Shown one piece after another: positions 31,074 through 33,351 of a DNA stretch of 33,351 nucleotides. The position numbers and the translations under genes were made by a program. Source of the stretch: Candidatus Zhuqueibacterota bacterium (GTDB lineage Bacteria; Zhuqueibacterota; Zhuqueibacteria; Oceanimicrobiales; Oceanimicrobiaceae); NCBI GenBank assembly GCA_029262005.1, contig JAJDAG010000064.1, positions 1 through 33,351 of the forward strand, written 5' to 3'. Numbering within the stretch: the first letter of the stretch is position 1; each line of letters begins with the position of its first letter. A model generated the notes under the pieces. That model ran no database searches, was not told where the DNA came from, and saw only the letters and a program-made list of their open reading frames with translations.

Positions 31074-31126
31074 TCAACGGCCAATAGCCAACGACCAACA
31101 ACAAAATATCAAAAAGACAAATCTTT

Positions 31127-32089: not shown

Positions 32090-32163
32090 GGCCGGTATTT
32101 CCCGCATAACTTCCACCATCGTCTTGATCCCATATCGTTTTCTGTGGGTGATAAATTCTCTTT

Positions 32164-32240
32164 TGACAAGATTAACAGAATTGACAGGATAAGATTTAGC
32201 ATTTCATTATCTAAATCACACCAAGCAATCATAACCCATA
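32164..32240. repeat. Partial copy of the right-end repeat, upstream of the GxxExxY gene
   Basis: This matches the middle of the repeats at 32634-32839 and 32940-33145: 'gattaacagaattgacagga', then 'atttcattatct' and 'caagcaatcata'. It ends about 12 bp before the start codon of the GxxExxY gene. Confidence 0.8.
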
Positions 32241-32252
32241 GGAAGGTCAACA

Positions 32253-32627
32253 ATGAAACACAAAGAACTTTCGGAAAAAATTATCGGTTGTGCTTATCGT
32301 GTTTATAATAAGATGGGCTTTGGCTTTTTGGAAGCAGTGTATGAAAAATGTTTAATGATTGAATTTAGAAAAGCAGGGTTACAAGCTGAATTTCAGAAAC
32401 CAATAACCGTTTACTATGATAAAGAAGTCGTCGGTGAATTTATAGCGGACATAGTTGTTGAAGGATTCATTATTGTAGAACTGAAATCTGTTAGGCAAAT
32501 TGTAAAGGCGCATGAAGTGCAATTAGTCAATTATTTAACTGCCACGGGAAAAGATATTGGTTTGATTCTTAATTTTAGCAATACTGAAGTAGAAGTCAAA
32601 CGAAAAGTTAGAAAACTGGATTACTGA
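32253..32627 (+). CDS. GxxExxY protein (PD-(D/E)XK nuclease-like fold)
   Basis: This 124-residue protein is at the family's usual length. The name-giving motif is Gly24-Glu27-Tyr30 ('GFLEAVY'). Asp66 in 'FIADIVVE', Glu76 and Lys78 in 'IIVELKS', and Gln90/Tyr94 in 'HEVQLVNYL' complete a PD-(D/E)XK-type active site. The family's biological role is unknown to me. GGAAGG lies before the ATG. Copies of one repeat lie directly before and directly behind the gene, and its base composition is more A+T-rich than its neighbours, which suggests acquisition as a unit. Confidence 0.92.
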   Translation: MKHKELSEKIIGCAYRVYNKMGFGFLEAVYEKCLMIEFRKAGLQAEFQKPITVYYDKEVVGEFIADIVVEGFIIVELKSVRQIVKAHEVQLVNYLTATGKDIGLILNFSNTEVEVKRKVRKLDY

Positions 32628-32633
32628 TTGTAA

Positions 32634-32839
32634 AAACAAAAATCCCGAAAATCCTGTTATCCTGTCAAAAAAAACAAAGCTGGTCTATACCATTTAACCT
32701 AAAATCTGACAGGATTAACAGGATTGACAGGATAAAATTTAGTATTTAATCGTCTGAATCTCAGCAAGCAATCAGAACTCAATCCGGTTAACCGGAACAA
32801 AAGAATCACGCAGAGCCGCAAAGGGCACGCAAAGTTTTT
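32634..32839. repeat. Right-end direct repeat, copy 1
   Basis: This copy of about 206 bp recurs at 32940-33145 (offset 306 bp) with few changes. It opens with 'aaaatcctgttatcctgtca', then has its inverted partner 'tgacaggattaacaggat' and 'tgacaggataaaattt', then the palindrome-like 'ccggttaaccgg', and ends 'gccgcaaagggcacgcaaag'. It starts 7 bp after the stop of the GxxExxY gene. Non-coding. Confidence 0.9.
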
Positions 32840-32939
32840 TCTTTTACTACCTTCCTCTTTTCCCTGTGTTATCTGTTATGTTTTTTCTCTGCTTCCTTCG
32901 CGCCCTCAGCGTTAAAACGAAGCCGGTGATTAACTAACA

Positions 32940-33145
32940 AAACAAAAATCCTGAAAATCCTGTTATCCTGTCAAAAAAAACAAAGCTGGTCTATACCATT
33001 TAACCTAAAATCTGACAGGATTAACAGGATTGACAGGATAAAATTTGGTATTTCATTATCTGAATCACAGCAAGCTATCATAAGTCAATCCGGTTAACCG
33101 GAACAAAAGAATCACGCAAAGCCGCAAAGGACACGCAAAGTTTTT
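32940..33145. repeat. Right-end direct repeat, copy 2
   Basis: This is the second copy of 32634-32839, with the same order of sub-motifs. The 100 bp between the copies contain 'cttccttcgcgccctcagcg', another common intergenic repeat phrase. From 33146 to the end of the window I see no gene or repeat. Confidence 0.9.
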
Positions 33146-33351
33146 CCCATAAGTTAAAATTTGTCTGTGAAATCAGTGAAGGGTATCTTGCAATAAGGGA
33201 AAATGAATTACTGTTTTGGTTCAGCGTGAATTGGACAAAAGAGCATTATGAAATAAGGTAGTCATGACGTTAACAATTGACAAGCGAGATTTTGTTTGTG
33301 AGTATTTTTTTCGTTTACCGTACTTCTGTTATTATTGATGTAGTTCTGTTG

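Follow-up and report, generated by a model that had tools for sequence, protein, structure and literature searches.

The closest described counterparts of the locus analysed here are repeats and small elements associated with a single gene. The REPIN/RAYT system consists of an autonomous element and miniature derivatives (PMC3116915). The 23S rRNA IVS of Coxiella is 428 to 444 nt long, has a 28-bp terminal inverted repeat and carries the S23 ORF, and an earlier proposal saw the IVS as a mobile element, with its ORF acting in mobility (PMC4990558). GxxExxY (TIGR04256/PF13366) is known as a protein family and receives passing mention in the literature as a domain beside reverse transcriptase. 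We found no description of an inverted-arm context for this family in the literature searched, the scope of which left out most subscription journals and bioRxiv, and provisionally the inverted-arm element is apparently undescribed. We analysed one such locus in a window of 33,351 nt (the whole stretch under study), which comes from a source genome of 5.77 Mb in 205 contigs.

Near the end of the window, a gene encodes a full-length GxxExxY protein. It matched the TIGR04256 profile with 138.6 bits (cut-off, 35; positions 1 to 116 of 116) and PF13366 (PDDEXK_3) with 135.6 bits (cut-off, 22), and at about four times the cut-off score it is an ordinary member of the family. PDDEXK_3 was the sole match in a Pfam search, with no HUH Y1 and no known transposase domain. 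As the earlier note had claimed, the Glu, Asp and ExK residues of a PD-(D/E)XK nuclease are kept (E27, D66 and E76-x-K78), as are the family columns Q90 and Y94. In an alignment of 51 sequences, D66 and E76 were invariant and E27, K78 and Q90 nearly so. The AlphaFold2 model has a nuclease fold with a mean pLDDT of 95. Its best PDB match in Foldseek was SSO0001 (4ic1), which we take to be Cas4-like, followed by lambda-type exonucleases and, lower, Holliday-junction resolvases; a search by sequence found no solved structure. From the modelled core fold and the D and E-x-K residues, the protein is a predicted member of the PD-(D/E)XK superfamily. An identity as a defence system was dropped, as PADLOC yielded weak Cas4-like matches and nothing else.

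Copies of a repeat had been reported around this gene, and they were located as described: a partial copy at 32164-32238, ending 14 bp before the gene, a full copy behind it at 32633-32839, and another at 32939-33145, the last two being 95% identical and 306 bp apart. Their placement as direct copies beside the gene was not borne out. The copy behind the gene opens with the reverse complement of the front arm, and the gene is therefore bracketed by inverted arms of 8- to 10-nt iterons (TTGACAaGATTAACAGaATTGACAGGATAA before, ATCCcGAAAATCCTGTTATCCTGTCAA after), so that the repeats are the two inverted ends of one element containing the gene. Because the left arm and its reverse complement AATCCcGAAAATCCTGTTATCCTGTCAA both point into the gene, 32163-32668 forms one arm-gene-arm unit, E1 (Table 1). 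For the gene-less E2, the arm scan placed a rightward-pointing arm (>) at 32709 and a leftward-pointing arm (<) at 32948-32971, and its interior holds a second iteron hairpin unrelated to the ACAGGA word. No closing arm for the truncated E3 was found within the window. Between E1 and E2, the DNA can fold in single-stranded form (32632-32740; z = -6.2), as is expected of any inverted repeat.

Table 1. Features of the arm-gene-arm locus and the gene-less copies behind it (window coordinates)
Feature	Position	Strand	Basis or extent
Left inverted arm, three ACAGGA-type iterons, TTGACAaGATTAACAGaATTGACAGGATAA	32163..32192	+	Sequence, repeat comparison, motif scan
GxxExxY gene, 124 aa, PD-(D/E)XK fold (predicted)	32253..32627	+	TIGR04256/PF13366, AlphaFold2, Foldseek
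Right inverted arm, AATCCcGAAAATCCTGTTATCCTGTCAA, reverse complement of left arm	32641..32668	-	Repeat comparison, motif scan
E1, gene-bearing element, ~506 bp	32163-32668		Left arm to right arm
E2, gene-less element	32707..32974	.	Left 75 bp and right end same as E1
Nested hairpin inside E2, other iteron word, CACGCAGAGCCGCAAAGGGCACGCAAAG ... CTCTGCTTCCTTCGCGCCCTCAGCG	32807..32911	.	Sequence, motif scan
Left arm of E3 (third copy, truncated)	33013..33041	+	Repeat comparison, motif scan
Second copy of CGCAAAG-word arm, in E3	33113..33140	+	Motif scan

Other repeats were seen elsewhere in the window. Solo ACAGGAT arms lie at 1565-1598 (four iterons) and 274-290 (two iterons), with no gene or partner arm nearby. 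Positions 1-501 hold a 297-bp tandem duplication with a CCCCCTAAATCCCCCTTCAAAGGGGGA hairpin, and related hairpins occur elsewhere in the relatives G010 and G028. A lone GGCCAATAGCCAACGACCAAC at 31075-31105, behind a mobA-like gene, resembles the arm words of four-helix-bundle genes. A dispersed repeat of about 99 bp (33199-33297) has copies 81 to 83% identical at three places in the same-family genome G002.

We additionally examined the repeats and GxxExxY loci across the source genome. With up to 3 mismatches, GGATTAACAGGATTGACAGGAT occurs 16 times, compared to 0 times for the reversed control, which is more than chance, and sites of this stricter ACAGGA-word pattern form about 11 clusters. 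Of about ten GxxExxY loci, several of them decayed, two have such a cluster within about 500 bp, compared to an expectation of 0.027 (Poisson P = 3.5e-4). Gene-less inverted doublets of about 80 bp each, with ACAGGA arms in the same inward polarity, were found at C92, C184 and C86, and gene-less hairpins were common in the genomes examined. The loci share the plan of the window locus, but their words differ: CGCAGAAG (L002), CACGAAG (L006), CCACGAACCACACGAAA hairpins (L005), CACGGATAAACACAGATGAAACACGGAT (L008, L010 and L012), CACAGAG (L001) and CGCAGAGGTCGCAAAG (L003). With at least five different words at ten loci, a single repeat tied to GxxExxY genes, as the earlier note had it, is ruled out; the iteron word is particular to the protein lineage, and what is conserved is the architecture.

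Several loci showed further peculiarities. At L002 (560-1220), a GxxExxY element lies between apparent hsdM and hsdS genes, and the hsdM 3' end with the next start region seemingly occurs in three copies, one on either side of the element and one inside it. L008, L010 and L012 are three decayed GxxExxY copies with common CACGGATAAACACAGAT arms, and on the preserved side an outer inverted repeat near TCTATGTTGTTTAGTGTGGGTAATG can be made out. Three dispersed gene-less elements in G004 (C35, C52 and C75; L347, L348 and L349) have ACAGGA arms and are 80 to 92% similar, their arms sitting within a larger outer inverted repeat (TTTCATAAATwCGGT).

The generality of the bracketing was examined with 80 GxxExxY loci, chosen by similarity to the window protein from named genomes in many phyla. 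For each gene, the preceding 200 bp were aligned to the following 200 bp in reverse complement. A score of at least 12 was reached by 81% of the GxxExxY genes (59 of 73), compared to 4.7% of neighbour ORFs (22 of 473; Fisher P ~8e-47) and 13.7% of mispaired flanks. The association with repeats thus stood when counted against the background, and the outcome that would have spoken against it, a repeat density no higher than around other genes, was sought and not found. At a score of at least 20, the proportions were 41, 1.5 and 1.5%, respectively, and in direct orientation 30% of the same GxxExxY flanks reached a score of 12. Two replicates gave 83% bracketed versus 11.6% mispaired for 29 GxxExxY genes of relatives and 69% versus 10.9% for 59 further unselected hits, including decayed copies. 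About a fifth of the GxxExxY genes have no detectable arms. The median clean element is about 510 bp long, with arms of about 30 nt and an iteron period of mostly 8 to 10 nt. Left arms usually start no more than about 20 nt from the upstream stop codon, and right arms usually end no more than about 30 nt from the next start. Over many elements, the arm consensus is approximately TTTAGACAcGGATTAACAcGGATTgACAcGGAT, with 2 to 4 inward-pointing iterons. One example is L079 of Luteimonas terricola, a GxxExxY protein gene with ACACGGAT arms; another is L222, a clean element located at radA in Bacteroides. Bracketing alone is no proof of a unit, because housekeeping genes can lie between two gene-less hairpins. 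Cobyrinate synthase-like, Lnt-like and SDR-like ORFs between arms (names judged from translations) were considered as cargo and read as such housekeeping genes.

The arm word follows the protein tree rather than the host genome. In 83 elements, it required 29 changes on the protein tree, compared to 52.9 when shuffled (as few in none of 200 shuffles), and a Mantel test of arm against protein gave a rho of 0.30, which none of 2,000 permutations reached. Ten armed elements have a protein at least 60% identical (60 to 78%) to the window protein; all of them carry ACAGGA arms, and they come from Planctomycetota, Thermodesulfobacteriota, Pseudomonadota, Armatimonadota, Cloacimonadota and Calditrichota as well as the window's own class. 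At L015, one further close relative, no arm pair was detectable. Among 129 elements, the median arm similarity was 14 for proteins at least 60% identical in different genomes and 6 for proteins less than 45% identical in the same genome (P = 4e-25). Judged from these sequences, the co-variation is the pattern that would be expected if the protein reads the arms. Physical linkage alone would also yield it if the arms were conserved for another reason; under linkage only, arm decay similar to that of other non-coding DNA should accompany the divergence of the proteins. The co-varying pairs of arm and protein provide ready material for learning how DNA words are selected by a small nuclease.

The likeness to REP elements and RAYTs that the earlier note had drawn holds for the strong association, the co-variation of repeat and protein and the gene-less doublets. 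It does not hold for one repeat in direct copies. As in REPIN/RAYT systems, an enzyme gene lies by short repeats, the gene-less inverted doublets are dispersed, and the repeat is lineage specific. However, the GxxExxY protein has a predicted PD-(D/E)XK rather than an HUH/Y1 fold, and its arms are tandem iterons, not palindromes, with a median self-complementarity of 4, compared to 19 between arms. Self-complementarity of at least 12 was found in 7% of GxxExxY elements, so the palindromic repeat of RAYT/REPIN is lacking. The GxxExxY gene also lies inside one inverted pair, and there are several lineages per genome, spread across phyla.

We compared sites with and without the element between related genomes. 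In the window genome, the element adjoins an M29 peptidase gene, and no GxxExxY gene lies downstream of the M29 orthologue in the same-family genome G005. At another site, the element is present in G030 and absent in G017, and at a third it is present in G034, damaged in G010 (same genus) and absent in G022. The search for empty sites that had been proposed was therefore answered in part: G005, G017 and G022 provide approximate sites without the element, but none of the sites compared was clean and base-exact, because the compared flanks (approximately 70 to 92% identical) were too diverged to give base-exact junctions. Nothing usable came from the comparisons of L122 with G024 and of L121 with G001. 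No target-site duplication was found in 43 clean elements (mean direct match, 1.81, versus 1.75 for mispaired flanks). Recent movement was not seen, as no genome with two near-identical gene-bearing copies was found. A phage search gave no match, and eight plasmid records had a match, some of them apparently chromosomal. Horizontal spread follows from the occurrence of proteins 60 to 78% identical in different phyla. From these comparisons, the element has the general marks of a mobile element, presence and absence at orthologous sites and horizontal spread together with its ends, with boundaries that are not base-exact. Like insertion sequences and MITEs, it has one gene between terminal inverted repeats and gene-less derivatives; unlike insertion sequences, it has neither a known transposase domain (DDE, HUH, serine or tyrosine) nor a target-site duplication.

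Inverted arms that co-vary with a nuclease across phyla suggest a widespread half-kilobase mobile element. With a probability of roughly 0.6, we infer that arm-GxxExxY-arm is a single-gene mobile element of about 0.5 kb whose PD-(D/E)XK protein would recognise, bind and cut its own ends and so mobilise the element in cis and in trans. Most likely, the protein, probably a dimer, would bind DNA at the iterons of the two ends and would cut or nick at the arms, from where movement would start. Such movement would leave no target-site duplication, and short intergenic gaps would tolerate it. Copies with arms but no gene (approximately 80 to 270 bp here) would have been moved in trans, as REPINs supposedly are by RAYTs.

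Alternatively, the element might act at the RNA level like a 23S rRNA IVS, with the arms pairing in the transcript, RNase III cutting the stem and the protein serving an RNA cycle; insertion would then be in the sense direction within operons since the host transcript is the habitat. Size (approximately 0.4 to 0.5 kb), arm length and architecture, a single ORF flanked by ~28-bp terminal inverted repeats, do fit the Coxiella IVS (PMC4990558). Genes of the IVS ORF family, the four-helix-bundle genes (PF05635), show the same architecture, 63% of 27 in the same phylum being bracketed versus 2.3% mispaired. Between co-directional genes, the GxxExxY gene is sense in 63 of 67 cases, but the excess over ordinary ORFs (197 of 250) is modest (63:4 versus 197:53; P = 0.004), and sense orientation was rejected as proof of an RNA mechanism. 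Arm mismatches showed no G-U bias (63 compatible versus 56 incompatible transitions; P = 0.58), and an Rfam search matched no family; the reading as RNA stems was rejected on these two results. With neither a target-site duplication nor a G-U bias, the arms more closely resemble sites in DNA than stems in RNA. Two further points speak against an RNA-level element, the tracking of the protein by the arm word and a predicted nuclease fold nearest to DNA exonucleases and Cas4-like proteins, and we regard this alternative as unlikely. The GxxExxY element further differs from the IVS in sitting between protein genes and not in 23S rRNA, in an ORF of the PDDEXK_3 nuclease family instead of the S23/four-helix-bundle family, and in arms with no sign of selection for RNA pairing. 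It would work like REPIN/RAYT but is no RAYT, no recognised insertion sequence and no rRNA IVS.

An unrelated transposase could also move the arms in trans, the GxxExxY gene being a passenger or a domesticated host gene that is, for example, autoregulated via the iterons. Iterons upstream of a gene are typical operators, and some arms do lie inside larger elements with outer inverted repeats of their own (the G004 copies; L008, L010 and L012). However, an operator needs no inverted repeat behind the gene, and one foreign transposase would not explain an arm word that tracks the GxxExxY lineage across phyla, which makes this explanation quite improbable. Passive co-occurrence, in which repeats and small orphan genes both accumulate in intergenic DNA, would draw on the common gene-less hairpins and the few ordinary genes that the bracketing survey found between them, but is hardly credible given that none of 29 ParE toxin genes from the same set of genomes and 6.7% of 119 neighbour ORFs with free flanks on both sides were bracketed, compared to 81% of GxxExxY genes, that left and right arms match within an element and far less between elements, and that in 44 clean elements the arms are single and a direct repeat is absent.

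The mobile-element reading bears on two puzzles. In the genomes searched, few "unknown" genes recur as often as those for GxxExxY and four-helix-bundle proteins, and the literature searched offered no explanation for the ACACGGATTAACACGGAT-like repeats that surround them. Should the repeat be driven by the gene, a single answer would serve both, and transposition by a lone PD-(D/E)XK nuclease would become testable. A broader and more tentative proposal, to which we give somewhat less than even odds, is a new transposon class moved by a solo PD-(D/E)XK nuclease reading iterons at both ends, with the genes for the four-helix-bundle IVS protein as a parallel class of the same end architecture; together they would explain a large proportion of the word-like short repeats in many phyla. 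The parallel in architecture with the four-helix-bundle genes suggests that IVSs may be the rRNA-dwelling edge of a larger class of elements. In relatives and the source genome itself (L136-L164 and L097), PF05635 genes outside rRNA have inverted iteron arms with a different word per locus, and the words (GTTCCGGGTTCCGAG, GCCAATAGCCAA and GGTTAAGGTTAAG) are quite unlike those of GxxExxY genes.

Two-domain GxxExxY proteins of about 270 aa were also seen (L247-L256), in which the second domain seems to lack catalytic residues. Could such a protein be a built-in dimer with one dead half? All 10 have inverted arms of their own words, with scores of at least 17.
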